Below, piece after piece: positions 17,385 through 41,896 of a stretch of 42,695 bases of DNA (its first letter is position 1; every line of letters begins with the position of its first letter). Location of the stretch: assembly GCA_945902075.1 (NCBI GenBank), contig CAMDMA010000033.1:1-42695 (forward strand). The letters are read 5' to 3'. Below the pieces are notes generated by a model. It did no database searches and was not told the origin of the DNA. It worked only from the letters and a program-made list of their open reading frames with translations. Both the position numbers and the translations under genes were made by a program. Source of the DNA: Candidatus Kuenenia stuttgartensis (lineage in GTDB: Bacteria; Planctomycetota; Phycisphaerae; Phycisphaerales; SM1A02).

Positions 17385-17433
17385 AAAACACCGTAAAATT
17401 CCAGCGCTCACGGCGATTTCGGAAGGAGCGCTG
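17385..17433 (-). terminator. possible terminator of the sigma-kinase operon
   Basis: An 8-bp perfect inverted repeat (17402-17409 with 17426-17433, 16-base loop) overlaps the last codons and stop of the kinase gene. Just past it, reading the minus strand, is GGAATTTTACGG. The long loop and short T-run make it only a moderate candidate. Confidence 0.45.
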
Positions 17434-20137: not shown

Positions 20138-20745
20138 TAACTCTTTTCCTCGGCAATCTGGGCCTGAACCAGTGCCTGCATGCGGTCGCGGACTCGTTGC
20201 TTCACCTTGTGCACCGCCTGCTCGGTCGTCGCGAAGCGCAGTGCTGTCGCCGCGATCGATATCCCGGCGATCAGCGTCTCGAAGATCGCCACGCTCTCCG
20301 GTGCATGGGTCCGGCGGATTTCCGAGAGGGCGAGTCGATAGTGGTGATTGATCCATTCGTCATCGAACATCTTTGCTGCGTCGCCTACGTCCGCTGAACC
20401 GGGGTCGTTGCTGGGCGAGAGTTCGGAAAGGGCTAGGAGTGGAGAGGCACTCATTGGACGGAGAGCCTTCGATTTTTGTCGACAAACCTCATTTCGGACT
20501 GCTCGGAAGAGGTAATCGCGAAATCGTCCTTTTGAGGCATCGAACGTAAAGTTCTGCAGTGACTTGAGCAGGGAGGCGAAAACCGCTTGCGCGACGTCCT
20601 CGGCGTCAGCAGCCTGAAGCCCCTGACGCATGGAAAATCGCACGACAAGCTCGCGGTAACGCGTCTCGAAATGCGTCCATGCCGCTTCGTCCTTCGGATC
20701 GCGAAGTCGAGCAATCAGCGTGAGTTGCGTGAGGGGGACAGACAT
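20137..20745 (-). CDS. ECF RNA polymerase sigma factor coupled to a Ser/Thr kinase
   Basis: A 202-residue sigma-70 family protein from ATG 20745 (MSVPLTQLTLIARLRD). Region 2 contains WTHFETRYRELVVRF, then DAEDVAQAVFASLLKSL and the promoter-melting part FRDYLFRAVRNEV. The C-terminal region 4 has a helix-turn-helix around SIAATALRFATTEQAVHKVKQR. It resembles the ECF groups of planctomycetes linked to protein kinases, which lack a classical anti-sigma factor. The kinase gene begins on the last base of its stop codon. The frame continues upstream to 20934, but that would translate the repeats at 20811-20977, so the shorter start is preferred. Confidence 0.87.
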   Translation of the reverse strand: MSVPLTQLTLIARLRDPKDEAAWTHFETRYRELVVRFSMRQGLQAADAEDVAQAVFASLLKSLQNFTFDASKGRFRDYLFRAVRNEVCRQKSKALRPMSASPLLALSELSPSNDPGSADVGDAAKMFDDEWINHHYRLALSEIRRTHAPESVAIFETLIAGISIAATALRFATTEQAVHKVKQRVRDRMQALVQAQIAEEKS

Positions 20746-20810
20746 CAGAAAGAAACTGTAACCCCCCGGAAATGGCGGCCTGCACGATTTCCGGCTCGAA
20801 ATCTTCAGGG

Positions 20811-20977
20811 GACACAAATCTGGGACAGGCATGCATCTCGGCCGGGCGGACTGGACCGGCGACGTGTTGGTTGGAAGGTAGGGCCAGAACCGCGGTGGAT
20901 TCGAACCTGTGCCGACACAAATCTGGGAATGCATGCCTGTCCCGGATTGCCGGAATGCATGCCTGTCCCGAATTGCG
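20811..20977. repeat. interspersed direct and inverted repeats upstream of the sigma-kinase operon
   Basis: In the 395-base gap before the sigma gene a 15-base element, GACACAAATCTGGGA, occurs at 20811-20825 and 20914-20928. A second 15-mer, GGGACAGGCATGCAT, occurs once forward at 20822-20836 and twice inverted (ATGCATGCCTGTCCC) at 20929-20943 and 20955-20969. The inverted copies could fold with the forward one across about 90 bases. The pattern looks like a small non-autonomous mobile repeat or REP-type element rather than a simple operator, but no transposase is nearby. Confidence 0.8.
20926..20977. repeat. two tandem 26-bp repeats
   Basis: Units at 20926-20951 and 20952-20977 differ at two positions. 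Each contains the palindromic core ATGCAT followed by GCCTGTCCCG. They form the right-hand part of the repeat cluster at 20811-20977. Confidence 0.88.
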
Positions 20978-26037: not shown

Positions 26038-26726
26038 AGCCCGTCACGATCTCTGCTGATCCGTGGAAATGGATCAGGAACCGGACGCTACCGCTACTCG
26101 TCGCGCTCGTTTCACTCATCACCCTTCATCCACTTTTCATCGACGAGTTCGGAACAAGCAATAAGATTTTCCCAGTCGCGATGGCGACCGTGCCTCTCTT
26201 TGGGTTGATCGTGCTCGGAAGTTGGCGGCGCGCCATTCCGCTACTTGTGCTCTTTGGCATCATGGTGATTTGGGCGCTCTTGATCTATGGATTCGATACC
26301 GACGCGATTGCGCGCAGTCCCATCGAGTTACTTGCTTTTGCTTACTACGCGTACGCGACGGTCGCCATCGGCACCACGCTGCTTCGCAGCACTGCACTCC
26401 TCGACGACCGCGTCTACGGTGGTCTTGCGGTTTTTCTGCTGTCTGCGTGTATGTATGCGACGCTCCATCGTCATATCTCGGCGCTTGACCCAAACGCATA
26501 CTGGTCAACGACTGATGGGGGACCAATCACACTCGATTGGGATGGATCGCTCTACTACTCCTTCGTTTCGATCACAACGGTTGGTTTCGGCGACATTGTC
26601 CCGCGCTCGCCGTGGGCCCGCTCAATCACCATCGTGGAGTGTGCGACCGGCATCTTCATCACAGTCGTGTTCATCGCACGACTTGCGGCGGTAGGCAGCG
26701 TTCGACAGAATGGCCACCCAACCTAA
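26034..26726 (+). CDS. potassium-channel-like membrane protein
   Basis: A 230-residue protein starting with GTG at 26034, whose GTGA overlaps the sulfotransferase stop; a GAGG site lies 8 bases upstream. Five hydrophobic segments precede a pore loop carrying the selectivity filter TTVGFGD near residue 181, followed by a last helix (VECATGIFITVVFIARL). This is the Ion_trans_2 type pore. The fourth helix has no regular Arg ladder, so voltage sensing is doubtful, and there is no cytoplasmic RCK or cyclic-nucleotide domain. A tetramer conducting K+ is the expected assembly. The link to a sulfotransferase is unexplained. Confidence 0.87.
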   Translation: MKPVTISADPWKWIRNRTLPLLVALVSLITLHPLFIDEFGTSNKIFPVAMATVPLFGLIVLGSWRRAIPLLVLFGIMVIWALLIYGFDTDAIARSPIELLAFAYYAYATVAIGTTLLRSTALLDDRVYGGLAVFLLSACMYATLHRHISALDPNAYWSTTDGGPITLDWDGSLYYSFVSITTVGFGDIVPRSPWARSITIVECATGIFITVVFIARLAAVGSVRQNGHPT

Positions 26727-26851
26727 CGAGCCAGAGCGAGAGCTCGCGCTATCCACCCTCAACGTACGACCAAAAATCCGCGAGAGTGTCGCCAGGCTGT
26801 GAACTTTTACCCTCGATACGGCCATCGGTCGAAGCAGTGTTTGGAGGATTC

Positions 26852-28399
26852 ATGCACGACCCAGCACTCACCCGCGAAGCACTTGCCGAACTGCCGCCTG
26901 ATCTTGTCGGAAGTCCATTGATCAACGGCGATCTTGCGCCCACGCCCATCGCTCGTCGTACGTGGACAACCTACAACTTCGCAGCGCTCTGGATCGCGAT
27001 GGCACACTGCATTCCGACCTATCTGCTCGCAGGCGGGCTGATTGCGGTCGGCATGAATTGGTGGCAAGCCCTACTCACAATCGGGCTCGGAAACATCATC
27101 GTTCTCATACCGATTCTGCTCAACGCCCATCCTGGTACCAAGTACGGGATTCCATTCCCCGTGTTTGCGCGCAGCAGCTTTGGCACTGTGGGCGCAAACG
27201 TGCCCGCCGTCTTGCGAGCGCTTGTTGCCTGCGGATGGTTCGGCATCCAAACTTATATCGGTGGCGAGGCGGTACGCACATTTCTTGTGACGGTCTGGCC
27301 AGCGTTTGCCAGCATCGGCGGTGAAACGACGGTACTCGGGCTCGCCATTCCGTCACTCCTCACCTTCCTGGCGTTTTGGTCGATCAACATCGTGATTGTG
27401 CTGATCGGAATGAACGCGGTGCGACACTTTGAGAACTGGTCCGCTCCGCTCATCTTGATAATGGGCGTGTGGCTACTTTGGTGGATGATCGACCGCGCTG
27501 GTGGGCTTGGCCCGATGTTTCATAGGCCGTCAACTTTCGCAACGAATGCGGACTTCTGGAGGGTGTTCGTACCCTCGCTGACTGGGATGATCGGATTCTG
27601 GGCGACGCTCAGTTTGAACATCCCAGACTTCACGCGCTTTGGCCGTGGTCAACGACAGCAGATTCTTGGACAGGCAATCGGGCTTCCGACAACGATGGTG
27701 GTCTTCAGTGCGATGGCAGTAGTGATCACCAGTGCTGCCGAAACCATTCTCAAGGGAGCTGATCCAAAAACGCTCTGGGATCCGGTGATCGTTCTCTCGC
27801 AAATAACGAGTGCAACGCCGCCGATCGGCCACGACGCTCCACTCATTAGCGATGCAGGTACGCGCATACTTGTCGCAATTTTGAGTTTGGTTGGCGTTGG
27901 CGTTGCGACGATCAGCACAAATATTGCAGCGAATGTCATCAGCCCCGCAAATGACTTCTCTCATCTCGCTCCTCGACTGATCTCATTCAAGACGGGTGGC
28001 GTGATCACGGGAGTCATCGGCGTACTGATCATGCCGTGGAAGTTGCTCGCGAGCGCCGACGCTTACATCTTCAATTGGCTTGTCGGCTACTCAGCACTAC
28101 TCGGTCCGATTGCTGGCATCATGATCGTTGACTATTGGATTCTGCGCCGCAGGCAACTTGATGTACCTGATCTCTACAGACCGCAGGGCCGATACGCAGG
28201 AATCAATTGGGTTGCGATGTTCGCTCTTGTAATCGGCATCGCGCCCAATGTGCCCGGATTCTTAAAGAGTGTCAAAATTCTCGAAGGCGAACCAAATCTG
28301 TGGGACGCTATCTATCCGTACGCATGGTTCACCGGCGTTTTACTCGCAGGTGTGGTGCACTGGATGTTTAGTCCCACGCGACACGACCGTATGCGCTGA
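26852..28399 (+). CDS. NCS1 family nucleobase/hydantoin/allantoin permease
   Basis: A 515-residue transporter of the NCS1 (Mhp1/PucI/CodB) family with about twelve membrane helices. The family opening is clear: NGDLAPTPIARRTWTTYNFAALWIAM (described here in part, residues 25-50), then HPGTKYGIPFPVFARSSFG and the GWFGIQTYIGG helix. NIPDFTRFGRGQRQQ also fits. It starts at ATG 26852 with GGAGG 5 bases upstream; the longer frame to 26537 overlaps the K+ channel and is rejected. It converges with the aminotransferase, 18 bases apart, ending the pyrimidine-degradation array. Likely cargo is uracil, thymine, dihydropyrimidine or hydantoin with Na+ or H+; the exact substrate is inference from context. 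Confidence 0.92.
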   Translation: MHDPALTREALAELPPDLVGSPLINGDLAPTPIARRTWTTYNFAALWIAMAHCIPTYLLAGGLIAVGMNWWQALLTIGLGNIIVLIPILLNAHPGTKYGIPFPVFARSSFGTVGANVPAVLRALVACGWFGIQTYIGGEAVRTFLVTVWPAFASIGGETTVLGLAIPSLLTFLAFWSINIVIVLIGMNAVRHFENWSAPLILIMGVWLLWWMIDRAGGLGPMFHRPSTFATNADFWRVFVPSLTGMIGFWATLSLNIPDFTRFGRGQRQQILGQAIGLPTTMVVFSAMAVVITSAAETILKGADPKTLWDPVIVLSQITSATPPIGHDAPLISDAGTRILVAILSLVGVGVATISTNIAANVISPANDFSHLAPRLISFKTGGVITGVIGVLIMPWKLLASADAYIFNWLVGYSALLGPIAGIMIVDYWILRRRQLDVPDLYRPQGRYAGINWVAMFALVIGIAPNVPGFLKSVKILEGEPNLWDAIYPYAWFTGVLLAGVVHWMFSPTRHDRMR

Positions 28400-28417
28400 G
28401 GCCATGTATCGCGTGCG

Positions 28418-29755
28418 TCATTCCTCAAACACTTCGTCGACGAGGTCAAGGCCGCGGTCGATGATGTCAAACGATTCTGCCATCTGCGCCTGATTGATCG
28501 TGAGTGGAGGATTGCACATCACCATGCTCCACTGAAGCACAGTGAAAAGCCCGTTTTCACGCAAGAACTTGCCGAGTTTCGGCATCACAGGGTGTGAGCC
28601 AGCGTACGGAACAAGCCGTTCACCCGCACTATTCTTGCGAAGTTCGATGCATCCGAAGAGACCGATGTTGCGGTGTTCCCTGACGCAGCGGTGCTTGGTC
28701 GCAAGCCGCGCCATATGACCTCGCATCACGTCGCCCATACGCGCCGAGTTTTCGACAAGCTTTTCGTCGACGATGACGTTGACCGCGGCAAGCGCGCACG
28801 CCATACAGAGTGGGTGTGCGTTATAGGTGAGCCCACCCCAAAAGATATTTTCACGAAAGTGGTTGGCGATCCGGTCGCTGACAGCCATCACGCCGAGCGG
28901 GAGGTAGCTGCTGGTCAGTCCCTTCGCCATGGTGCAGATATCGGGAACGATGCCGCCATGCTCGAATGCGAACAACTTCCCAGTGCGACCCCAGCCGCAC
29001 ATGACCTCATCGCACACGAGGAGAATCCCGTACTTCTCGAGTAGGGTCTTCAATCCCTTGAGGTAGCCGTCGGGTGGCGGAAGGATGCCGTTCGTACCGG
29101 TGACCGTTTCGATGAACATCGCAGCGATGTTCTTCGGTCCCTCGTACTGAATGATCTCCTCCAAGTAGCGCAGGTTGTTCGTGACGATTTCCGTATCGGT
29201 GGTTCCGAAACTGAATTCATAAGGCTTCGGATCCATCACGCGGATGACCCCTGGCATCCCAGGTTCGGTGGGCCAACGTCGTGGGTCACCGGTCAAGGTG
29301 ATGGCGCCATTGGTTGCGCCGTGGTAACTGCGGTGGCGCACGAGAATTTTCTGGCGGCCAGTGAACATGCGCACGGCCTTAATCGCGTTCTCGTTCGCCT
29401 CTGCACCGCCAAGCGTGTAGAAAAACGTGTTGAGATCGCCGGGAACCAACTCTGCAAGCCGCTGCGAGAGTCGTGCGCGAATTTCCGTTGCCATACCCGG
29501 ATAGGCGTATGCAAGCGTCGCGGCCTGTTCCTGAATCGCCTGCACGACTTTTGGGTGACCGTGTCCGATGTTGACGCTCATCAACTGGCTGTTGAAGTCG
29601 ATCCAGCGCTGACCCTCGGGTCCGTGCAGATAGATGCCCTCTGCGCGTGCGATGGGAATCGGATCGACTTTGCCAGTCGCGCTCCACGAGAAGAGGCTGT
29701 GCTGCATGCACACATCAATCATCTCGCGCGAGGACATCGATGATTCATGGCTCAT
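28418..29755 (-). CDS. class III omega-aminotransferase (probable beta-alanine aminotransferase)
   Basis: A 445-residue PLP enzyme. It has the class III pattern: GGAEANENAIKAVR (116-129), HRSYHGATNGA (141-151), Asp249 in LLVCDEVMCGWGRTGK and the Schiff-base Lys278 in MAKGLTSSYLPLG. It probably moves the amino group of beta-alanine (from uracil) or 2-methyl-beta-alanine (from thymine) to pyruvate or 2-oxoglutarate, giving malonate or methylmalonate semialdehyde. That role rests on its place: it starts 1 base after the stop of the semialdehyde dehydrogenase, the enzyme using its product. By sequence alone taurine or other omega-amino acids are possible substrates. Confidence 0.9.
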   Translation of the reverse strand: MSHESSMSSREMIDVCMQHSLFSWSATGKVDPIPIARAEGIYLHGPEGQRWIDFNSQLMSVNIGHGHPKVVQAIQEQAATLAYAYPGMATEIRARLSQRLAELVPGDLNTFFYTLGGAEANENAIKAVRMFTGRQKILVRHRSYHGATNGAITLTGDPRRWPTEPGMPGVIRVMDPKPYEFSFGTTDTEIVTNNLRYLEEIIQYEGPKNIAAMFIETVTGTNGILPPPDGYLKGLKTLLEKYGILLVCDEVMCGWGRTGKLFAFEHGGIVPDICTMAKGLTSSYLPLGVMAVSDRIANHFRENIFWGGLTYNAHPLCMACALAAVNVIVDEKLVENSARMGDVMRGHMARLATKHRCVREHRNIGLFGCIELRKNSAGERLVPYAGSHPVMPKLGKFLRENGLFTVLQWSMVMCNPPLTINQAQMAESFDIIDRGLDLVDEVFEE

Positions 29756-29756
29756 T

Positions 29757-31280
29757 TCAGCTCATCCAGTTCTGGTCGCGTTGGAGCGCCCACTTGCTCG
29801 TGATCTTGCGCTGCCGCGTCCAAAAGCGGTAGCCATCCCAGCCCGTCATATTGCCGTGACCAAAGGCGGAATCATTCCATCCTCCGAAGCCGAAGGGCTC
29901 GCGTGGAACAGGGACGCCGATATTGACGCCGCACATGCCCGCCTCAACGCTCGCGAGAACACGCCGCGCGATATCTCCGCTTGAGGTGTAGATACAACTC
30001 GCGTTTCCATACGGGCTTGAGTTTTCGATCTCAATTGCCTTGTCAAGTGTGGGTACGCGTCTCACGCTCAGGACGGGGCCGAAAATCTCTTCATGTGCGA
30101 CCGGCATGTCACCAGTGACACCATCGAGAATCGTCGGACCGATCCAGTATCCGCCCGGAACCGCAGCACTCGGGTTCGGTGCGCGACCATCGAGCACGAT
30201 CCGTGCGCCCATTTGTTCAGCACCATCAATGTAGTTGGCGATGCGATCACGGGCTGCTTGTGTTGTGACCGGGCCAAGATCGCGCCCTGTTGTGATCTTG
30301 GCTGCGCGCACACGCACCGCATCGAGAATGTGGTCGACATCACCGACCGCTAGCAGCACACTCGCAGCCATGCACCGTTGACCAGCGCATCCTGTGAATG
30401 AAGCAACGACGTTTTCGGCAGTCAGCTCTGGGTCGGCGTCGGGCACAACAATCAGATGATTTTTCGCCCCTCCAAGACAAAGCGCACGCTTGCCCTGCAC
30501 GCTCGCGCGAGCATAGACCGCTTTCGCAACGCGTGTACTTCCGACAAAGCCGAGCGCCTTGACTTCTGGGTGGTCGCACAACGCCTCAACGACATCGCGA
30601 CCACCTTGGACGATGTTGAAGACACCTGCTGGGAGCCCCGCCTCTGCGAGCAGTTCTGCAAGCCTTAACGTCGAGAGTGGTACGCGCTCACTCGGTTTGA
30701 GCACGAACGCGTTTCCGCCTACGAGCGCTTGCGGAAGCATCCAGAGCGGAACCATGATTGGGAAATTGAACGGCGTCACACCCGCGACCACTCCAAGCGG
30801 CGTGTACGCGAGCTCACACGATACTCCGCGGCTTACTTCGAGCTGGTTTCCAGCCGCAAGATTCGGGAGTGAGCAGCCGAACTCCACGCACTCAATGCCC
30901 TTCTCGACCTCTGCTTTCGCTTCGCCATAGATCTTGCCGTTTTCATGTGAAACGAGCCACGAAAGCTCCTCAAGGTTCCGCACCATGAGTTCGCGCAGCC
31001 GATACATCACGTGCGCCCGATCACGAATCGGCCAGTGTCCCCACTCGCGCGCAGCGGCTGCGCCCGATTTTACGGCGGCAGCGACATCATCTGCGCCTCC
31101 GATGCGCACCTGAGCAATCGTCTTTCCGTATCGAGGATTCACGACGTCAAGCTCAGTCTTGCTTGAGAGTGGATCGCGCCAAGCGCCACCGATCCAGTGG
31201 CGAGCAGTCGCATAGGCGGTGAAGTCGTTACTTGTCGCAGAAAATGGACCAATGGCAGGCGTTGATGAAACTACGGTCAT
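29757..31280 (-). CDS. mmsA: CoA-acylating (methyl)malonate-semialdehyde dehydrogenase
   Basis: A 507-residue aldehyde dehydrogenase of the MmsA/IolA class. The nucleophile is Cys303 in GCAGQRCMA. The usual catalytic Glu of hydrolytic aldehyde dehydrogenases (ELGGK) is replaced by the GGAKNH motif at 270-275, the mark of the CoA-acylating subgroup. It oxidises malonate or methylmalonate semialdehyde with NAD+ and CoA, releasing CO2 and giving acetyl-CoA or propionyl-CoA, the last step of uracil or thymine catabolism. The start overlaps the dihydropyrimidinase stop as ATGA and the aminotransferase follows after 1 base, so the three are in one operon. It could also serve valine or inositol breakdown. 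Confidence 0.93.
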   Translation of the reverse strand: MTVVSSTPAIGPFSATSNDFTAYATARHWIGGAWRDPLSSKTELDVVNPRYGKTIAQVRIGGADDVAAAVKSGAAAAREWGHWPIRDRAHVMYRLRELMVRNLEELSWLVSHENGKIYGEAKAEVEKGIECVEFGCSLPNLAAGNQLEVSRGVSCELAYTPLGVVAGVTPFNFPIMVPLWMLPQALVGGNAFVLKPSERVPLSTLRLAELLAEAGLPAGVFNIVQGGRDVVEALCDHPEVKALGFVGSTRVAKAVYARASVQGKRALCLGGAKNHLIVVPDADPELTAENVVASFTGCAGQRCMAASVLLAVGDVDHILDAVRVRAAKITTGRDLGPVTTQAARDRIANYIDGAEQMGARIVLDGRAPNPSAAVPGGYWIGPTILDGVTGDMPVAHEEIFGPVLSVRRVPTLDKAIEIENSSPYGNASCIYTSSGDIARRVLASVEAGMCGVNIGVPVPREPFGFGGWNDSAFGHGNMTGWDGYRFWTRQRKITSKWALQRDQNWMS

Positions 31281-32773
31281 GGCACAAACTCCTGGCGCTC
31301 GACAGCCGTCGGCATGGTGAAGGTATTTCGAATCGCCTGGCTACGCGTGGTGTCGCCGAAGCAGGGGCGGTGGACGTAGCAACCGTGTCCTTCGAGTGGC
31401 GTGAGCCTGCCGTTTTCCCATAGGACAGTTCCACGACTGAGGGTGATCGCTGCTGCGCCGGTGACGCGCATGCCCTCAAAGATGCTGAAGTCATTGCGCG
31501 AATGATGCGATCTCGCGCTGAGCGTGCGTGTGGCATCCGGATCCCATACGACGATATCTGCATCGGAGCCGACAGCGATCGTTCCCTTCTTGGGATGCAC
31601 GTTAAAGATGCGTGCAGCGTTGGTACTTGTTGCGGCCACAAATTCGCTGGGCGTCAGGCGTCCGCTACCAACGCCGTGGTGCCAAAGCACACTCATGCGT
31701 TCTTCGAGACCACCGGTTCCGTTGGGAATTTTGCGGAAATCGGTAGCACCCATCGCCTTCTGATCCGTGCGGAACGTGCAGTGGTCGGTACCGATCACCT
31801 CGATCGTTCCACCTTGCAGGCCACCCCAGAGGGCAGTTTGGTGCTCGGGCGCGCGGAATGGCGGGCTCATCACATGATGCGCCGCGCGACGCCAATCAGT
31901 GTCGCGGTACACGGAGTCGTCGATGACAAGATGCTGAACCAGCGATTCGCCGAACACGCGTTGTCCCGCGAGCTTGGCCCGCGCGATTGCTTCCATCGCT
32001 GGGCGACAACTCGTATGCACGATGTAGAGCGGAACACCAACAATCCCCGCGATTTGGCAAGCGCGGTTCGCGGCCTCTCCCTCGACCTCGGGTGGCCGCG
32101 AGAGCGGATGGCCTTCAGGACCCACGATGCCACGCGCAACGATCTCTTGCTGCATACGAAAGACAAGATCCCCGTTTTCTGCATGCACCATGCAGATCGC
32201 GCCAACATCACGCGCCCGGGTGAAGCTCTCGATGAGCGTCGCGTCATCGACCATAATCGCATTTTTGTACGCCATGAAGTGCTTGAAGCTATTCACTCCA
32301 TGCTCGCGCGCGAGGATAGTCATCTCTTCGGCAACTTCTGGCGACCACCATGTGATGGCCATGTGGAAAGAGTAGTCAGTGGTAGCTTTTCTCGCGCGCT
32401 CACGCCATATCGCGTAGGTTTCAAGCAGCGACTGCCCGGGTGCCGGAATCGCAAAGTCGATGATCATCGTTGTTCCACCCGCGGCTGCGCAGGCGGTACC
32501 CGAGAGAAAATCATCAACGCTTACCGTGCCCATAAATGGCAGTTCCATGTGGACGTGCGGATCGATACCACCGGGCATGACGTATGCGCCACCCGCATCG
32601 ATTGTCCGTGCACCTACGGGAGCTTGCAGCGACTCAGCAACCGCAATCACTTTCTCACCCGCAATGAGCACGTCGGCGCGCACGGTGTTGTCTGCGGTGA
32701 CGACTGTTCCGCCTCGAATGAGCGTCGTCTCATTGAGACGTTTGCCCGTGCGATCAATCTTTGTGTCGCTCAT
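31277..32773 (-). CDS. hydA: dihydropyrimidinase (D-hydantoinase family)
   Basis: A 498-residue cyclic amidohydrolase opening dihydrouracil or dihydrothymine to N-carbamoyl-beta-alanine or its methyl form. The binuclear metal site is complete: HVH (His73, His75), the carboxylated Lys164 in SFKHFMAYK, His197 in MVHAEN, His253 in IVHTS and Asp330 in GTDHC. The active-site loop MELPFMGTVSVDDF at 76-89 matches dihydropyrimidinases and hydantoinases rather than allantoinase or dihydroorotase. It lies 78 bases after the amidohydrolase gene and overlaps the next gene by ATGA, between the steps before and after it in the pathway. Confidence 0.94.
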   Translation of the reverse strand: MSDTKIDRTGKRLNETTLIRGGTVVTADNTVRADVLIAGEKVIAVAESLQAPVGARTIDAGGAYVMPGGIDPHVHMELPFMGTVSVDDFLSGTACAAAGGTTMIIDFAIPAPGQSLLETYAIWRERARKATTDYSFHMAITWWSPEVAEEMTILAREHGVNSFKHFMAYKNAIMVDDATLIESFTRARDVGAICMVHAENGDLVFRMQQEIVARGIVGPEGHPLSRPPEVEGEAANRACQIAGIVGVPLYIVHTSCRPAMEAIARAKLAGQRVFGESLVQHLVIDDSVYRDTDWRRAAHHVMSPPFRAPEHQTALWGGLQGGTIEVIGTDHCTFRTDQKAMGATDFRKIPNGTGGLEERMSVLWHHGVGSGRLTPSEFVAATSTNAARIFNVHPKKGTIAVGSDADIVVWDPDATRTLSARSHHSRNDFSIFEGMRVTGAAAITLSRGTVLWENGRLTPLEGHGCYVHRPCFGDTTRSQAIRNTFTMPTAVERQEFVP

Positions 32774-32851
32774 AGTTCGTCTCGCTTCTGACGGCTAGGT
32801 GCCATTGCTTCGCAGGTGCGCGATGCTGCGTGTAGATGCGTGCACTCGATG

Positions 32852-33730
32852 TCAGAGCCGCGTGATTTCAGGATACGCCTCAGGTCGCCGATCACGATAA
32901 AACTGCCACACACTGCGCACTTGATCGATCATGCCCAGATCAAGGTCTGAGACGAGCAGTTCGTCATTGTCCTCGCTCGCCTGCGCAACGGTTTCTCCGC
33001 GTGGGTTCACGAAGTAGCTCGTGCCATAAAATTTCCCGATGTTCCACGGTGCCTCAGTACCAACGCGATTGATGCAACCCATGTAGTAACCGTTGGCCAC
33101 AGCGTGTGCGGGCTGTTCGATCTTCCACAAATACTGCGACAATCCCGCGACCGTTGCTGATGGATTGAACACGATCTGCGCGCCGTTGAGCCCGAGGCAT
33201 CGTGCGCCTTCAGGGAAGTGTCGGTCGTAACAGATGTATACGCCGATGGTCGCGTAGCGCGTCTTGAAGACGGGGTAGCCACCATTTCCCGGCTTGAAGA
33301 AAAACTTTTCAAAGAAGCCGGGCTGAACTTGGGGGATGTGCTGTTTGCGGTATTTGCCGAGGTAGGTTCCGTCGGCGTCGTACACAGCAGCAGTGTTGTA
33401 AAAGACACCGCTCATTTCACGCTCGTACACGGGCACAACGACGGCCATCGCATACTTCTTCGCGAGGCCTGCGATGAGATCGGTCGTGGGCCCCGGCACC
33501 GATTCAGCCGCTTCGTACCAACGAGGATCTTGCCCAGGGCAGAAGTAGGGCCCATTGAAGATCTCCTGTAGGCAAAGGATTTGAACTCCCTTCTTGCCAG
33601 CGTCCTCGATAAGCGCAACATGCTTGTCGACCATCGCTTTTTGGATTTCGCGTACCGGTCGCGATTCATCGTTGATCGGATTGCTGCACTGGATGAGCCC
33701 GCAGCGGACGGTTTTGCGTTCTTGGTTCAT
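32852..33730 (-). CDS. N-carbamoyl-beta-alanine amidohydrolase (beta-ureidopropionase, nitrilase superfamily)
   Basis: A 292-residue nitrilase-superfamily C-N hydrolase. The Glu-Lys-Cys triad is present: Glu56 in CLQEIFNGPYF, Lys129 in KYRKQHIPQ and Cys167 in VYICYDRHFPEG. The QEIFNGPYFCPGQD and IPQVQPGFFEKFFFKPGN blocks match beta-ureidopropionase-like members. It would release CO2 and ammonia from N-carbamoyl-beta-alanine, giving beta-alanine. It lies 39 bases after preA and 78 bases before the dihydropyrimidinase gene. Eukaryotic enzymes carry longer N-termini; this is the compact bacterial form. Confidence 0.92.
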   Translation of the reverse strand: MNQERKTVRCGLIQCSNPINDESRPVREIQKAMVDKHVALIEDAGKKGVQILCLQEIFNGPYFCPGQDPRWYEAAESVPGPTTDLIAGLAKKYAMAVVVPVYEREMSGVFYNTAAVYDADGTYLGKYRKQHIPQVQPGFFEKFFFKPGNGGYPVFKTRYATIGVYICYDRHFPEGARCLGLNGAQIVFNPSATVAGLSQYLWKIEQPAHAVANGYYMGCINRVGTEAPWNIGKFYGTSYFVNPRGETVAQASEDNDELLVSDLDLGMIDQVRSVWQFYRDRRPEAYPEITRL

Positions 33731-33769
33731 TCGTTTACCGTTCGTAGATTCAGCACTCGTTGTTCCCTG

Positions 33770-35074
33770 TTAGTGCGCGCCTTTTTTGGGCCGCAACGTC
33801 GCGCCGCGGGCGGCAAAATCATTCCAACTTGCGCGCGTGTGCTCGTTGGCAACCTCGACCATTTCGATACATCCAGCGACCGGGCACACAATCTGGCAGA
33901 GGTTACAGCCGACACATTCCGACTCATCCACGTGCGGCACGCGGGTTTCCTCTTGCGGATGAATGCACTGATGTGCGCCGTCATGGCACGCTGCCACGCA
34001 TAGCTGGCAACCGATGCATTTGTCTGCATCGATCTTCGCAACCGTTTCATAGTTCAGGTCAAGGTCGCCCCACTCGCTGAATGCGGGGATCGCCTTGCCA
34101 ACCATCTGATCGATCGTGGAGAAGCCATGCGTGCGCATGTAGTCCTCGAGGCCGTCGACCATGTCTTCGACGACACCGTAGCCGCGCAGCATGACTTCGG
34201 TACAGATCTGCACGGTGCTTGAGCCGAGCAGGATGAACTCAACGGCGTCTCTCCAGTTTGAGATTCCGCCGATGCCGCTGATCGGAAGGCCAAACTCCTT
34301 GGTTCGTGCGAGTTCCGCAACCATGTGGAGCGCGATGGGTTTGACCGCGGATCCGCAGTAACCGCCGTTCGTGCTCAGGCTGCCGACGCGCGGAATTGGT
34401 ACGAGTCGATCGATATCGACGGCAACGATGCTCTTGATGGTGTTGATGAGCGAGACACCGTGTGCGCCGCCGCGCTTTGCCGCCATGCCATGCGGAATGA
34501 TGTCACCAACGTTCGGCGTCAACTTCACGAGTACAGGAACGGTGCTGTATTTCACGGCCCATGCAGTAATACGCTCGTTTACCATCGGTTCTTGTCCGAC
34601 CGCGCTTCCCATTCCGCGCTCGCACATGCCGTGCGGACAGCCGAAGTTCAGTTCGAGTCCATCGGCGCCCGCATCAATTGACTTCGAAATAATTTCGCGC
34701 CACTCCGCCTCGGTTTCGACCATGAGCGAGACGATGATCGGATTTCTCGGAAAAAGGCGCTTGGTCTCAGCGATTTCTCGAAGGTTCACTTCGAGCGGAC
34801 GGTCGGTGATGAGTTCGATGTTTGAGAAGCCTGCGCCTTGAACGCCGCGGATCGTGTGCCCAGCGAAACGGCTCGACACATTCTGAATCGGGACGCCGAG
34901 CGTCTTCCAGACCGCTCCGCCCCAGCCGGCCTCGAAGGCACGTTGGATCTGCAGCCCGCTGTTGGCCGGGGGTGCACTTGCGAGCCAGAACGGGTTTGGC
35001 GAGCGGATACCTCCGGTGTTCGTCTCAAGGCTTGGAGCGGCAACGGACGCGTGTGATGTTTGCGGTTTACGCAT
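33770..35074 (-). CDS. preA: NAD-dependent dihydropyrimidine dehydrogenase, subunit PreA
   Basis: A 434-residue subunit that binds FMN and reduces uracil or thymine. The N-terminal barrel starts NPFWLASAPPANSG and carries the active-site Cys region FGCPHGMCERGMGSA. The C-terminus has two 4Fe-4S ferredoxin motifs (CIGCQLCVAACHDG and CVGCNLCQIVCPVAGC). The start is ATG 35074, overlapping the preT end by 8 bases; the frame extends to 35233 inside preT and is not used. Together PreT and PreA correspond to the single-chain mammalian dihydropyrimidine dehydrogenase split in two: PreT takes electrons from NADH, PreA passes them to the pyrimidine. Confidence 0.95.
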   Translation of the reverse strand: MRKPQTSHASVAAPSLETNTGGIRSPNPFWLASAPPANSGLQIQRAFEAGWGGAVWKTLGVPIQNVSSRFAGHTIRGVQGAGFSNIELITDRPLEVNLREIAETKRLFPRNPIIVSLMVETEAEWREIISKSIDAGADGLELNFGCPHGMCERGMGSAVGQEPMVNERITAWAVKYSTVPVLVKLTPNVGDIIPHGMAAKRGGAHGVSLINTIKSIVAVDIDRLVPIPRVGSLSTNGGYCGSAVKPIALHMVAELARTKEFGLPISGIGGISNWRDAVEFILLGSSTVQICTEVMLRGYGVVEDMVDGLEDYMRTHGFSTIDQMVGKAIPAFSEWGDLDLNYETVAKIDADKCIGCQLCVAACHDGAHQCIHPQEETRVPHVDESECVGCNLCQIVCPVAGCIEMVEVANEHTRASWNDFAARGATLRPKKGAH

Positions 35075-36383
35075 CGTGGTGTGCTCCGCTGAATGCAGCG
35101 TGGATCGCGTGCGCGGCGCGCTTTCCTTCTGCGGCTGCATTGACGACTTCCTTGCCGCCATTTGTGCAGTCTCCACCTGCGTACCAACCGGGGCGGCCGG
35201 TGAAGCCGTGCTCATTGACCCGAATGCAGCCATGATCGAATGTCACGCCGTCGAGCCCCGCGAACTGTCCGCCGAGCTTTGACTGCCCAATCGCAAGCAA
35301 GACAAGATCTGCCTCGAGCACAAAGTCAGAGCCAGCAATTGGGCGTTTGCTGTCATCGAGGCGCACGCAGTGCACATGCTGCACACGCGCATCGCCACGG
35401 AAAGTTGTGGCAACAGAACGCCATTCGACGTTGATTCCCTCGGTCATTGCAGCGTCGAGTTCGTGTGCGTAGCCACTCATCGCGTCGCGTTGTCCGCGGT
35501 AGAGCATCGTGACATTCGCGACACCGAGGCCGCGTACTTCGCGCACCACGTCGAGGGCTGTATTGCCGCCGCCTACGACGATTGCACGTGAAACACGGGA
35601 GAAATCTGCCTTCCCAAGCTTCATCGACTCAATCCAGGCAACGGCACCGTGGACGCCATGGAGTGTTTCGCCGGGAATTCCAAGCGCACTATCCGCTCCG
35701 AGTCCAACACCGATGAACACTGCATCGAAATCGCGCTCAAGCTCCGCAAGCGAGATGTGCTCGCCCACGACGACGCCAGTTCGCAGTTCGATGCCGCCGA
35801 TCGAGAGCACCCACTCGACCTCGGTGAGTGCCCGGTCTGCTTTCATCTTGTAGGGCGCGACGCCAGTCGCATTGAGTCCGCCAACGGTTGTCCGCTTCTC
35901 GAAGATCGTACAAGCATGGCCAAATCGTCTCAGTTCATGTACCGCTGCAAGGCTCGCCGGCCCCGAGCCAATCAGCGCGACGCGTTTCCCTGTTTCTGCG
36001 CCAGCTTCAAAAAACTGCCAGCCCTGCTCGAACGCGATATCTGTGGCGTAACGCTGCAACTTTCCGATCGCGATCGGCGGCTGCTTCAAATCGTTGTAGA
36101 CGCACGCGCCAGCGCACAGCACTTCAACCGGGCAGACGCGCGCGCAACTCATGCCCAGGATATTTGCCTCGAAAATCGTCCTCGCCGAACCCCGCACATT
36201 GTCAGTTGAAATCTTTCGGATGAACTGGGGGATATCGATCGCGGTCGGGCACGCTTTGATGCACGGTGCGTCGTGACAAAAAAGACAGCGGTTTGCTTCG
36301 GCGACGGCAGCATCGCGGAGAAGCGGGAGTTTGAAGTCCTCAAAGACAGACTCTGAACGTTCGATAGAAAGCTGTGGAGTCAT
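35067..36383 (-). CDS. preT: NAD-dependent dihydropyrimidine dehydrogenase, subunit PreT
   Basis: A 438-residue FAD and Fe-S oxidoreductase of the GltD-like family. The N-terminal Cys motifs CLFCHDAPCIKACP and CARVCPVEVLCAGAC bind 4Fe-4S clusters. They are followed by the FAD fingerprint LIGSGPASLAA, the NAD(P) fingerprint VVGGGNTALDVV and the closing YAGGDCTNGG. It supplies electrons from NADH to PreA; in E. coli the PreT-PreA pair reduces uracil and thymine. I chose ATG 36383, where homology begins; the frame is open to 36419. It is the first gene of the catabolic array, with a 493-base gap upstream. Confidence 0.95.
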   Translation of the reverse strand: MTPQLSIERSESVFEDFKLPLLRDAAVAEANRCLFCHDAPCIKACPTAIDIPQFIRKISTDNVRGSARTIFEANILGMSCARVCPVEVLCAGACVYNDLKQPPIAIGKLQRYATDIAFEQGWQFFEAGAETGKRVALIGSGPASLAAVHELRRFGHACTIFEKRTTVGGLNATGVAPYKMKADRALTEVEWVLSIGGIELRTGVVVGEHISLAELERDFDAVFIGVGLGADSALGIPGETLHGVHGAVAWIESMKLGKADFSRVSRAIVVGGGNTALDVVREVRGLGVANVTMLYRGQRDAMSGYAHELDAAMTEGINVEWRSVATTFRGDARVQHVHCVRLDDSKRPIAGSDFVLEADLVLLAIGQSKLGGQFAGLDGVTFDHGCIRVNEHGFTGRPGWYAGGDCTNGGKEVVNAAAEGKRAAHAIHAAFSGAHHDA

Positions 36384-36876
36384 ATGAATTCGTCCCAGAT
36401 GCGCGAGGCGCAGAACCAACAGTATCGGCCAGACTGGGCCGATTTCAACGGTTCAATCTGAGGTTTCTCGTTGAGCGGTTTGGTCGATTCCCTTGAAGGT
36501 TTCGCGAAGGTCCTACCAAGGGCTTCGTGGCGTGCAATCGCAGGCATAGCTGCCGAGAGCCCTGTCGTGCCATTTGGATCGCTCCGGGTGACGGACGCTC
36601 AAGGTTCATTCGTCTAGGAAGTACCTCTAGGCGTGCGGTTGAGAATGGTCCACGCACAAAGTGGTTGTTCAAGTTGCTGAGTCAATCACGCGGTGAGCCG
36701 CCGCGAGACATGACGTTGCGACGTTTGAGCAAATGTCGTAGTGCAATCCCATTGCACGATCGCTTACATGATGGCAGCTGAAACCAACGAGATCGGCGAG
36801 CGTGATCCGTGCAAGCCGATCACAAGTACAGAGATCGGATCCCATTCATGGCGATCGGACAATCGCGCTACCGAGA
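36384..36876. other. 493-base gap between preT and the sensory receptor, no convincing gene
   Basis: No frame here reads as a protein: the short open frames on both strands are Arg/Ser/Pro-rich and match shadows. A small GC stem CGGCC-AGACTG-GGCCG lies near 36428-36443, close to the preT start, and GCGAT-CGGACA-ATCGC at 36851-36866 lies just past the receptor stop. The preT promoter and any regulator site should be within this stretch. I do not recognise a known riboswitch. Confidence 0.6.
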
Positions 36877-38976
36877 TCAGACGATAAACCGTGTCACCTC
36901 ACCATTGAGCTCGTCGACCGCGCCGCGTAGGTTCGTCGTCGCGACGTTGAACTCGTTGAGTGACGCAGCGGTTCGCGATGCACCATCCGAAAGCCGCGCC
37001 ATCGCTTCGCGAATTTGCTCGGCTCCCTGCGACTGCGCGCACATGCCCTCCGTCACCTGCTCGAAGCGGCCAGAGATCCCCTGCACAGCGGAAATGATCT
37101 CGCCAAGCTTCGCGGAGATGTCGCCAATCCTCACAACTCCTCCTTGAACCTGCGTATCGAACGCCTGCATCTCGTTCACGCCTGCATGCACGCTGTGCTG
37201 CATGTCCTTCACCATCTGCTCGATATCAAGGGCGGCCACTGCAGTTTGGTCAGCAAGCCGGGAGATTTCACTCGCGACAACGCGGAAGCCGAGTCCGTAC
37301 TTCCCGGCGCGTTCCGCCTCAAGGGCCGCGTTCAGTGAGAGCAGATTCGTTTGATTCGCGACCTTGGTCATCGTTCCGACGACGCGGTTGATGGTTGTGG
37401 CGCGCTCACTGATCGTCGCGAGTTTTGCGCTGAAAGACGTCGTGCTCCGCGCAAGTTCTTGCATCGTCGCATCCATGCCTGCGAGGTCTTGCCTTCCTTC
37501 TTCCGCGCGCGCTCCGGTACGCGAAGCCATCTCATTGACTTCGCTCATCGTCCGGGCGAGTTCTTGGCTCGTCCCTGTGATCTGACGCACCGCAGCGGCG
37601 GCATCGCTGGTGGTTGCACCGAACTCGGTAACGACCTGGCGTTGCCCGCCACTCGTCGACTGCATGGCCGTCGCGGTTGCAAACAGTACGGACGAGGAAC
37701 TCTGAATACGGCCGATGAGCCCGCGGAGATCGTCGCTCATCGTTTGGATCGCATCAAGAAGCGCGCCAGTTTCGTCTTGAGCAGTTACTCCGACGTCCGT
37801 GCGGAGATCACCATCCGCCACTTGGCGCGCGACGCGTACAGCAGTGGCGATCGGCTTCGAGATCGATCGGGCAACGAGTAATGCCGTGAGCGTCACGCCG
37901 ACGATCGTCGCCACGGAGAGTCCAATGATCGCGTTGCGCTGGAAGCGCACCAACGCGAACGCTTCGCTTGCATCCTGTTTGACCGCCATCCCCCAGCGGA
38001 GGCTTGGCAGATAGCACCACGCAGCCGCGACGTCGATACCGCGGATGTCGGGCACGACGCCATATCCGCGGTCACCGCTCGCCGAGCGAACTGCCGCCGA
38101 GGTTTGTCCCGAGCCCAATTCAAACTGCAGCTGAAACGCGGCATCCGAAGCACTTCGGAGCGGCTTCGTGATTAGAAACTTATTCCCGCGCCGCTCGCCG
38201 GCCACGATGTCTCCCGTCTCGCCGAGTCCGCTGAGGTCTGAAAGTATGCGCCAAATCCGTTGAGGACCAAGTCCGGCTGCGAGTACGCCGATGACGCGAC
38301 CGTCGCTGATGATGGGACTTGTGACAAACGCGAGCGGTTCAGCCGACGCGCCGAAGAGTTCAAAGCCGCCTAGATCCGATTGGAGCAATGTGCGCGCACG
38401 ATCAAATCCTGCCGACAACTCGGTATCACGGAAGCGTTCGTCGTCGAGGGACTCGCCCACCTCAACTGATCCATCGAGCGCGTAAAGGACACGCCCCGAA
38501 AGGTCGATCATGAGCAACTGCGAGAATTCGTAGACACTCGCGGCGTTCACGAGGGTTGATTCGAGTTTGGTTCGCAGCGCGGCCGATTCGGTCGTAGAGA
38601 CTCCGGTCGAAGGTGCCGAAGCGGTGCCAGCTGATGCTGCTCTGAGCTGAGCCATCGCCGCGATAATGTCTTTGCTGTGCGCGAGCGTTGTGCCGTCGTC
38701 AACGCGCTGAAGGGTGTAGACCTCAATCTCATCAGCTTTGGCTGCAGCGATCTGAACCAGTCGCGTCCGCACGGAATTTTCAAGCGCGTGTACCGCGATG
38801 CGCGCTGTGACAGTTGTCAAGAGCGCGCAAGGCACAAGCGAAATTGCAAGAAACCAAATCGTGAGTCGACTGGCGATCGAACGGCGTCGGTGCGAAGCGG
38901 TTGATCCGGAGGTGCGGCTCGCATCATTGGTACCGTTCTTCGTTGCGCGTGCTGCGCTGTGATCGTTCCGAATCAT
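36877..38976 (-). CDS. dCache-HAMP methyl-accepting receptor with WspA-like signalling domain
   Basis: A 699-residue receptor. Transmembrane helix 1 is at about 38-60. A dCache-type extracytoplasmic domain spans about 70-340, with [30 protein letters not shown] and the GLGETGDI motif. Transmembrane helix 2 (348-370) leads to a HAMP domain (371-425) and a long coiled coil. The hairpin tip is [20 protein letters not shown] at about 539-558, followed by [30 protein letters not shown]. Both this region and the C-terminal end EVTRFIV resemble WspA of the Wsp surface-sensing pathway more than chemotaxis receptors, and there is no CheR-tethering pentapeptide. The start overlaps the stop of the binding-protein gene (ATGA). 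Partner CheA, CheW or WspR genes are not in the window. Confidence 0.9.
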
Positions 38977-40346
38977 CGTGATACCGATCCTTCCTGGAGC
39001 GCAGTTGGAGAAACTCCAGTAGGAGCCGCCCATTTTCCACCCCATCGGCGGTGGAGATCTTCGACGAATCTCTCCCATGATTCGCGGGAGCGTGAGCTAG
39101 GGAATGGCACCGGTCGCACCGCGATCCCGCTCGACCAGACGACGTCAAACTGCCCGTCCGCGCGGATCCTTCCGATCGCGACCGGCAGCCATGTATGTTG
39201 TGTCTCACGATCAACGGCGATGATGCCGGAAGGCGCGTTCAAACTCTGATGACGAATCGCGTAGCGCACTTGGCGCACGTCGGTGCTATCCGCCTCACCA
39301 ACCGCTTGCGCCCAGAGCCGCACGCTGTTGTATGCGGCCTCCATCACTCCCGAGACTGGGCGGTCCATGCCAAACCGCGCCTTAAAGTTGCGGACAAACT
39401 TCACGTTCTCGGGGCGATCGAGGCTCTGAAAATAGTTCCAAGCGGCGTAGTTTCCAACCATGTCCTCACGGGCAACCGTTCGGAGTTCGTTTTCACCGAG
39501 TGCGAACGTGAGGACCGGCGTCTTATCAGGGCGGATCCCTGCTTCGCGCAACTGCTTGGCGAAAGCGATTGCTGAATCGCCGACCACCGAACTCAGCACG
39601 ACATCGGGCTTCGCGTCGACGATTGCGCGTACGGCAGCGCTGACATCGGTGCTTCCAAACGGGATGTACATCTCTCCCGCGCGCTCGGCACCAAGCCCGA
39701 CGAGCTGGTCGCTGATGATCGCGTTGACACAGTGCGGCCAGATGTAGTCCGATCCAACGAGAAAATATCGGCGCGCGCCGAGTTTCTCATGGCACCATTG
39801 CACAGCGGGAGTGATCTGTTGATTTGGTGCAGCACCGGTGTAAACAATGTTGTTTGACTGCTCAAGCCCCTCATACGCCATCGGGTAGACCAGGAGGTGG
39901 TCGTTCGATTCGAAGACTGGAAGCACGCTCTTACGACTCGCGCTTGTCCAGCATCCGAAGACGACGCAGACCTTGTCATCACGGATGAGTTTCTCTGCTT
40001 GCGTGGCAAATGTTGGCCAGTCCGACGCGCCGTCCGCGATCACCCATTGAATCTCGCGACCGAGCAGTCCGCCCGCGGCGTTGATCTCTTCGAGCGCGAG
40101 AATTTCCGCCTCGATCATTGAGTTCTCACTCACCGCCATCGCGCCAGTTTGTGAGTGCAGGATGCCGACCACGATTGGGCTACGGTCGATGAAGAGTCGA
40201 TCGAGTCCAAGCCAAAGGCCCACGGCGACCACAACAAGTGCGACGATGACGAACATCATCGTGACTGCGCTGCGCAGACGTCCGCGTGTTGCGAGTTGTG
40301 GCATGACGAGAGATGTGGTGGAAGCGGACTGGTTGCGATCCATCAT
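38973..40346 (-). CDS. membrane-anchored UrtA-like (urea/amide family) solute-binding protein
   Basis: A 457-residue protein with one N-terminal transmembrane anchor (about 28-49, [20 protein letters not shown]) and no lipobox, so the binding domain sits outside the membrane. The domain is that of the UrtA/FmdD/AmiC family: [69 protein letters not shown] and a [16 protein letters not shown] block. This family binds urea, short amides or branched-chain amino acids for ABC uptake, but no permease or ATPase gene is near. An AAAGGGA ribosome site precedes tandem ATG codons (40346, 40343). Its ATGA overlap with the receptor gene argues that it presents ligand to that receptor rather than to a transporter. 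Confidence 0.9.
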
Positions 40347-40957: not shown

Positions 40958-41641
40958 TCAGCGACGACGACGGGCTGCGAGGCCCGCGAGGCCGAGGAGT
41001 GCGATGGCGCCTGGAGCCGGGACAGCGGTGCCGTTGACAAAGATGTTGTCGATGCGGTTGGTACCGCCGGTCGCCCCGGTCGAGGTAACCACGAAGCGGA
41101 AGAAGAGGGTCGCCTGGTCTCCGGCGCCCGCGATGCTGTTGATGGTCGTGGTGAACGCAGCCTGCACGCCATTCGGGACCGACCAGGCGAGCGTGCCGGA
41201 GCCGGCGAGTCCGGCCTGGATGACGGTGTAGCTAGAAAGGATGCTCGAGAAGTTCGAGCCGTCAGTGCTCATCTGCACGGAAAAGACCGACGGGCCGGTG
41301 CTTGAGCGGGTCTGGTCCCACGAGAGGTTGATGTCGCTGAAGCCGGTCGTCGAGACAGCGATCTGGTAGTAGTCGCCGACCGTCCAGTTGTTGCTGGAGA
41401 GCGAGTAGGTCGAGCCGTTTCCAGATGGCGAAGACCAGGTCGTCGCAGCCAAGCTGTGGGCGGCGCTAAGCGAGGTGCCAGCGGCAAGGTCACCCTGATC
41501 GGCGGCGCCGTAGGTGTAGCTTGCACCAGTGGTGGCAGCGGGAACCGCGGTGGTCATCGTCCAGCCTGCGACGAGCGACGCTGAGGCACTCACGGTCGTC
41601 GTCAAAACGGCCATCGCGGCAACGAGAGATTGCTTCTTCAT
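40958..41641 (-). CDS. PEP-CTERM exported surface protein
   Basis: A 227-residue secreted protein from ATG 41641, with GGAG 8 bases upstream; the frame is open to 41722 but lacks a ribosome site there. The signal peptide is KKQSLVAAMAVLTTTVSASA. The body is rich in Ser, Thr, Gly and Asn with alternating hydrophobics (WTVGDYYQIAVSTTGFSDINLSW), typical of a beta-sandwich. The end is a clear sorting tail: VPAPGAIALLGLAGLAARRRR, that is, a P-x-P/PEP-like motif, a hydrophobic helix and four arginines. Function unknown; likely a surface or extracellular-matrix protein processed by an exosortase encoded elsewhere. Confidence 0.87.
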   Translation of the reverse strand: MKKQSLVAAMAVLTTTVSASASLVAGWTMTTAVPAATTGASYTYGAADQGDLAAGTSLSAAHSLAATTWSSPSGNGSTYSLSSNNWTVGDYYQIAVSTTGFSDINLSWDQTRSSTGPSVFSVQMSTDGSNFSSILSSYTVIQAGLAGSGTLAWSVPNGVQAAFTTTINSIAGAGDQATLFFRFVVTSTGATGGTNRIDNIFVNGTAVPAPGAIALLGLAGLAARRRR

Positions 41642-41896
41642 CTGAAACTCCGAATGTTGTTGTGGACAGGGAACAGGACCAGTAGAGAAAGGCGCAAACA
41701 ACTCGCGCGCGGAGAGGGACATCCGCGGACTCTAAATTAACGCCGGATGACTCGAACTCCAAAGCGAATTCGCCGACTTTTCACGAGGCTCACGAAATCC
41801 AGCGCTGCCGTGCAAAGGAACCGTGGGAGAATCCCGGGGAGAAGTCATCGTTCTGGTGCAGTTGTCGCAGTATTTATTAGTCGACTTGCACTTCTG

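Follow-up and report, generated by a model that had tools for sequence, protein, structure and literature searches.

The window analysed here, a stretch of 42,695 nucleotides from Candidatus Kuenenia stuttgartensis (contig CAMDMA010000033.1), carries on its reverse strand two overlapping genes, one for a UrtA-type solute-binding protein (SBP) and the other for a receptor with a double-Cache (dCache) ectodomain, a HAMP domain, and the signalling hairpin of a methyl-accepting chemotaxis protein (MCP). Both genes most likely encode one split receptor, in which an amide-sensing SBP is read by the dCache domain and feeds the MCP hairpin. This reading is carried by results obtained by computation, namely the recurrence of the pair, the close spacing of its genes, a dCache subfamily tied to the SBP, a separate SBP lineage, changes in the ligand pocket, and the similarity of the signalling hairpin; the contact between SBP and dCache, the ligand, the anchoring, the partner cluster, and the direction of the response are what we infer.

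The sensor subunit is an SBP of 457 amino acids (38973–40346), recognised by profile match and structure model. It scores 499 bits against PF13433, with a cut-off of 27, and so belongs to the Peripla_BP_5 fold family, and 466.4 bits against TIGR03407, the UrtA model, slightly below the curated cut-off of 492.75. Its stop codon overlaps the start of the receptor gene in an ATGA (38973–38976), and the junction, read directly from the sequence, is CACGATGATTCGG. As called mechanically, the open reading frame of the receptor has 733 codons and begins within the SBP gene; the start at 38976, in the ATGA overlap, gives a protein of 699 amino acids (36877–38976), assigned to the dCache–HAMP–MCP architecture by profile matches. 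Among the neighbouring genes tested there is no UrtBCDE, ABC permease, or ATPase, and the SBP is the only protein above the PF13433 family cut-off in the assembly, which is 97% complete. Thus, the profiles and the junction confirm what a preliminary description of this DNA had stated, a UrtA-type SBP without adjacent ABC genes that is ATGA-coupled to a dCache–HAMP receptor, and translational coupling could plausibly ensure 1:1 expression of both proteins.

The pairing recurs well outside the source genome. Of 294 planctomycete genomes, 32 contained an SBP match at a threshold of 1e-30. The surroundings were read for 37 of the 40 matches outside the window (G260:C9, G260:C263, and G286:C98 were left out): three SBPs stand before a dCache–HAMP histidine kinase, four are fused behind a Ser/Thr kinase, and three are fused ahead of a hybrid kinase, the remainder comprising 21 on the strand of UrtB/UrtC homologues and six unassigned. 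Together with further relatives, taken as the best 80 from a scan of named genomes, at least 26 distinct pairs have the SBP directly beside a dCache receptor, with the window counted and L103 excluded as a duplicate on the same contig as L051. Their outputs are an MCP in eight, a histidine kinase in 13 (one also with EAL), GGDEF–EAL in three, and SpoIIE in two (L086 and L092), where it is the direct output of the receptor. The records that bear pairs, many of them metagenome bins, are named as Planctomycetota, Cyanobacteriota, Pseudomonadota, and Verrucomicrobia (Verrucomicrobiota), in addition to one deltaproteobacterial and one Thaumarchaeota metagenome-assembled genome. Gene order is reversed in L092, the receptor preceding the SBP, and in all 24 receptor-downstream pairs measured in this first set the nearest in-frame receptor start lies between −10 and +29 nt from the SBP stop; the start nearest to that stop was chosen, so single offsets are partly a matter of choice, while adjacency is unaffected. 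In L083 and L087 the receptor is split across two frames and was kept as such, and sister SBPs fused to Ser/Thr kinases make up seven rows. Among 724 records of plasmid relatives, the 30 listed are either unnamed or bear urtA, amiC-type, or ABC-transporter names. A protein of 1517 amino acids with two PF13433 stretches and HEAT repeats was also encountered (L111:2446-6999).

The sensor SBPs are a lineage separate from the transporter UrtAs. In a quick tree of 116 SBPs, all with more than 300 aligned query residues, a clade of 34 rows (SH-like approximate likelihood ratio test, SH-aLRT, 97) includes none of the 60 urtBC-linked rows, a label that denotes a homologue of the true UrtB or UrtC references anywhere on the same strand of the locus. 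This clade comprises 17 SBPs beside non-MCP dCache receptors, eight beside dCache–MCPs, seven Ser/Thr-kinase fusions, and two that were unassigned, among them L097, which proved to have a dCache kinase adjacent. The position of L056 in the signalling clade was treated as a probable misplacement, since it has exporter-type neighbours, a degenerate pocket, and a long branch. A careful tree was then restricted to 63 of the 116 rows, with 21 of the 60 urt rows, and L055, L056, and L078 were excluded for their long branches. There, a 99/99 branch separates 21 urt-linked SBPs, six cyanobacterial kinase fusions, and two unassigned SBPs from all 32 signalling rows, and a grouping of all 32 signalling rows is not rejected by the approximately unbiased test (p-AU 0.46). 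Given this placement, the SBP–hybrid-kinase fusions look like further recruitments. The cyanobacterial histidine-kinase fusions L099, L101, L105, L106, L108, and L114 retain a full urea pocket outside the paired lineage and are candidates for one-piece urea sensors.

The dCache subfamily is in turn tied to this SBP lineage across phyla and outputs. A leave-phylum-out dCache profile, derived from 12 non-planctomycete paired receptors and run on the 294 planctomycete genomes, had the four SBP-linked receptors as its top four matches (364, 362, 279, and 244 bits), followed by the next match at 165 bits; an earlier search with the full profile covered the rows on which it was trained and does not count as evidence here. 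In a test starting from the dCache domain, the full profile was applied to 398 genomes from the phylum to which a Gallionella bin belongs. Forty matches scored at least 229 bits, and 39 of these were read (G355:C37:36898 left out), with an SBP directly upstream in 33, three cut by a contig end (L201, L203, and L210), and three without an SBP. Between 184 and 217 bits, 31 of 32 matches were read (G500:C38 left out) and none had an SBP upstream; L233, cut by a contig end after 252 upstream bases, was not counted as readable, and L240 and L248 offer 1366 and 937 bases, respectively. At readable loci, an SBP is therefore upstream in 33/36 of the higher-scoring versus 0/30 of the lower-scoring matches (Fisher p 2e-15), or in 31/34 versus 0/30 without the training rows L187 and L188. 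The nearest start lies −7 to +9 nt from the SBP stop in 33/33 of these proteobacterial pairs, and 21 of them show an ATGA or GTGA overlap. Such close spacing in every pair measured, here and in the first set, exceeds what chance would give. Moreover, the distances among SBPs and among dCache domains are correlated (r 0.71 over 52 pairs), the maximum among 2000 permutations being 0.17. Thus, the SBP trees, the leave-phylum-out search, the dCache-first test, and the SBP–kinase fusions support the earlier proposal of a recruitment from transport to signalling that yielded a dedicated SBP–receptor pair.

The SBP model (predicted local distance difference test, pLDDT, 90.6) has one long helix, residues 20–52 (40191–40289), leading into the ligand-binding domain (39090–40175, PF13433 match), and its closest solved structures in Foldseek are urea-binding proteins, with AmiC next. 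Model and hydropathy make this N-terminal helix a probable membrane anchor, the best 19-residue Kyte–Doolittle value being 2.82, and a motif scan flagged no lipobox or AxA motif at the N-terminus of the window SBP. The corresponding values in paired SBPs of the survey, some of which have lipobox-like or AxA motifs, range from 1.39 to 2.82, versus 1.13–1.84 in 15 sampled urt-linked SBPs. In the receptor, the dCache ectodomain with its flanking transmembrane helices (37879–38898) is followed by the HAMP domain (37723–37878; PF00672, 41.5 bits) and the MCP hairpin (36988–37533; PF00015, 110.5 bits, cut-off 34.6). The dCache_1 Pfam score of 34.7 bits is under the cut-off of 45, which several paired receptors exceed (e.g., L045 and L046); the double-Cache fold is recovered by the model (pLDDT 88.6) and by its structure matches, with a Foldseek E of 1.5e-11 to the McpH domain and, for DctB, a Z of 18.3 and a root-mean-square deviation of 2.8 over 230 aligned residues. 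LuxQ is absent among the structure matches listed for the dCache model. The D. retbaense receptor 5ere, the dCache part of which is tabulated with cytosine in an excerpt of PMC8694187, aligns to the model only from residue 352 of its longer chain.

The ligand pocket can be compared with that of Prochlorococcus marinus UrtA, the numbering of which is used here. Residues near urea in that protein are Trp120, Ser122, Tyr141, Gln144, Glu146, Tyr190, Phe192, Asn246, and Ser274, and mutation of Ser122, Gln144, Tyr190, or Asn246 strongly reduces or abolishes urea binding (PMC10392092, in part). Alignment to UrtA places in the window SBP Ala157 (39876–39878) for Gln144, Trp203 (39738–39740) for Phe192, Val255 (39582–39584) for Asn246, and Ala282 (39501–39503) for Ser274. 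Thus, two of the four side chains that form hydrogen bonds with urea, Ser122 and Tyr190, are retained, and two, Gln144 and Asn246, are lost. When Phe or Tyr is allowed at 192, the urea pocket is intact in 54/60 urt-linked SBPs, 15/17 SBPs paired with non-MCP receptors, 9/9 hybrid-kinase fusions, 6/7 Ser/Thr-kinase fusions, and 28/31 readable SBPs of the proteobacterial set, and in just one (L089) of the eight MCP-paired SBPs. The set Ala144, Trp192, Val246, and Ala274 is common to the window, L081, L082, L083, L084, and L085, with Tyr120 in addition in L084. L087 and L209 share Ala144, Trp192, and Val246, but retain Ser274, and L090 has Ala at 246; Val246 also occurs in AmiC, by alignment, and in six urt-linked SBPs.

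The preliminary description had the SBP present a nitrogenous ligand. The family at large looks urea-sensing: urea is its likely ligand and most relatives are probably urea sensors. For the window clade, however, urea is unlikely, because Gln144 and Asn246, which are needed for tight urea binding, have been lost; its ligand is probably another small amide. Judging from the residues, L089 (an MCP with a urea pocket) and L087 (a kinase with a changed pocket) point to independent changes of ligand and output. The paired SBPs L134, L207, and L220 have other pocket changes, with Arg in place of Gln144 in L134 and L207, and these may be further ligand switches. Urease was considered and rejected as an explanation of the module, the source genome having none and 6/26 module-bearing genomes, several of them incomplete, having one.

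Regarding the output, seven MCP matches occur in the genome, which encodes CheW-domain proteins on contigs 28 and 7. The contig-7 cluster (L161:6091-15257) consists of genes for an MCP, CheW, CheR, CheW, CheA with a receiver, and CheB, with a receiver–SpoIIE phosphatase as the last gene. A split receptor signalling instead to the contig-28 CheA/CheW system, with taxis as the probable output, is conceivable since both chemosensory systems exist in the genome, but it is rather unlikely. The window hairpin is 45–48% identical to the two contig-7 MCPs versus 26–32% to the other four, in a comparison that leaves out the L081 receptor. Moreover, CheW–CheR–CheW–CheA genes lie downstream of the SBP–MCP pair in L082 and L089, and in L090 a CheW gene is followed by the contig end; over 441 residues, the CheAs encoded at L082 and L089 share 39% and 42% identity with the contig-7 CheA, and the contig-28 CheA matches less. 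Hence, on the similarity of the hairpin and on these three loci, the best guess is that the window receptor signals to the alternative contig-7 chemosensory cluster. It may then fall in the alternative-function (ACF-type) class, receptors whose signals go to a non-canonical CheA cluster with an output other than the flagellum.

Several observations weigh against the split receptor or parts of it. No che genes adjoin the pair in L084 or in L081, its nearest relative, both of which have unrelated neighbours (the neighbourhood of L083 resembles that of L084). The correlation of SBP and dCache distances falls to r 0.26 among pairs with less than 60% SBP identity, and therefore close co-inheritance carries much of it. 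In the careful tree, two long-branch planctomycete SBP–kinase fusions are placed with the signalling rows. The same-genus relative G251 lacks the SBP and, because of this, the unit is patchy and may be mobile. SBP and kinase genes that lie side by side need not be functionally linked: in Pseudomonas aeruginosa, AgtS and AruS showed no interaction with an SBP, according to the abstract of PMC11113362. Finally, L194, L206, and L218 have an SBP-type dCache and no SBP in the 1.5–2.5 kb read upstream.

These last three receptors would also fit a dCache that binds a ligand of its own, the SBP being co-expressed just to raise or steady the level of a related compound; direct binding of small ligands is usual for dCache domains, and the closest solved matches include ligand-bound receptors. 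Nevertheless, the strict tie of this dCache subfamily to the SBP lineage, and the swapping of output domains while the SBP–dCache pair is kept, make such an arrangement improbable.

Another explanation relates the pair to its surroundings. A reductive pyrimidine-catabolism cluster extends over 26537–36419, with an NCS1-type permease on the forward strand (26537–28399) and, on the reverse strand, PreT-like and PreA subunits, a carbon–nitrogen hydrolase, a dihydropyrimidinase, a methylmalonate-semialdehyde-type dehydrogenase, and a class-III aminotransferase. The pair could be the sensor for the downstream catabolic genes (28418–36419), responding to uracil, dihydrouracil, N-carbamoyl-beta-alanine, or beta-alanine, inasmuch as these are the next genes on the same strand, the permease is close by, and the pocket would have space where Gln144 was lost. 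However, a gap of 457 bp separates the receptor from the cluster, and no matches to seven reference genes of cluster and permease were found around the MCP-paired L081–L085, L089, and L090 (flanks of up to 6 kb, four of these loci spanning just 3.5–7 kb), so pyrimidine or beta-alanine sensing has no comparative support and appears decidedly doubtful. A scan of the gap was uninformative, with one promoter-like site (shuffled mean 1.3) and six terminator-like sites (shuffled mean 3.6).

That the SBP is an ordinary transport protein for a permease encoded elsewhere, with the receptor merely adjacent, is very improbable despite its UrtA-level similarity (466 bits to TIGR03407) and six PF02653 permease matches in the genome, given that one and the same dCache subfamily accompanies the SBP in several phyla, that 0/60 urtBC-linked SBPs fall within the sensor lineage, and that the LIV-type permease pair on contig 11 has a separate SBP adjacent. 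This pair, the two of the six permeases that were examined in detail, which adjoins the second PF13433 match of the genome (19 bits, below the cut-off), scores as LivH/LivM, below the UrtB cut-off, with a best identity of 29–31% to UrtB/UrtC, and an orphan ABC system, which would have spoken against a sensory role, is thus unsupported.

In the split receptor as proposed, the SBP, probably membrane-held through its N-terminal helix, would close on a small, amide-like ligand on the outer side of the inner membrane, and the dCache ectodomain of the co-translated receptor would read the SBP. The change would then pass through HAMP into the MCP hairpin, which most likely feeds the contig-7 cluster and not the contig-28 CheA/CheW system. 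The window clade would have switched from urea to another small amide, while most SBP relatives keep the urea pocket. In a wider sense, a UrtA-derived anchored SBP and its dedicated dCache subfamily are likely to constitute a transferable front end of split receptors, directed at urea and small amides and linked to no fewer than four types of output (MCP, histidine kinase, GGDEF–EAL, and SpoIIE phosphatase), with a sister line fused to Ser/Thr kinases and with the ligand changed in one mostly planctomycete clade while the architecture was kept.

Receptors read through an SBP are already known, and what appears to be new is a dedicated UrtA-derived subunit bound to a particular dCache subfamily in different phyla and with different outputs. 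LuxP belongs to a different SBP family and is periplasmic. Among the known cases, the Vibrio LuxP–LuxQ system is the closest in mechanism, although its SBP family is unrelated: the signal is bound by the SBP and not by the tandem-PAS (dCache-like) ectodomain, and the receptor reads the SBP (excerpt of PMC8534201). The window shows the same arrangement, known here from genes and models, of an SBP gene adjoining a receptor with a tandem Cache/PAS ectodomain; however, LuxQ is a kinase, whereas the window-type SBP is UrtA-derived, probably anchored, and paired with several kinds of output, MCPs among them. UrtA, the SBP of the urea transporter UrtABCDE, shares the SBP family and fold, and its urea pocket is kept by most relatives of the window SBP, but the latter has no adjacent UrtBCDE and belongs to a separate lineage, and its clade lacks two urea-binding side chains. 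AmiC of P. aeruginosa acts in the cytoplasm and is a UrtA relative serving as an amide sensor, with Val replacing Asn246 just as in the window SBP. Unlike the window SBP, it controls AmiR (title of entry 1qo0) and has no receptor partner. Chemoreceptors stimulated by loaded SBPs include PstS–CtpL and Escherichia coli receptors with their binding proteins (PMC6829864, in part); PstS also serves a transporter, whereas the window SBP appears to be receptor-dedicated and is co-encoded. TorS is listed together with TorT in an excerpt of PMC8534201, and in TorT–TorS, AgtS, and AruS the SBP gene adjoins the receptor gene as in the window, with SBPs of other families. An excerpt of PMC8547431 tabulates one chemoreceptor whose ligand-binding domain is Peripla_BP_5, and PF13433 is counted among SBP families in one of PMC9602780. 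The pairing of a UrtA-type SBP with a dCache receptor was not found reported in titles and abstract openings of the open-licence literature, which leaves its unpublished status unproven.

If the proposal is true, a family of SBP-dependent receptors would be recognisable from sequence, each genome naming the partner, and dozens of natural pairs would be available for testing the way in which a Cache ectodomain is switched by its SBP. Urea sensing would be predicted in organisms related to nitrifiers, iron oxidisers, and cyanobacteria, and the four pocket residues would represent a natural ligand switch. Caution is advisable in annotation, as such sensor genes score nearly as urea transporter proteins.

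Two further features of the window were noted. A protein of 254 amino acids (40958–41722) ends in a C-terminal hydrophobic stretch with an arginine run, which we take to resemble a PEP-CTERM-type sorting signal, and a Ser/Thr kinase of 982 amino acids with TPR repeats (17408–20934) adjoins a protein with a sigma-70 region 2 match.

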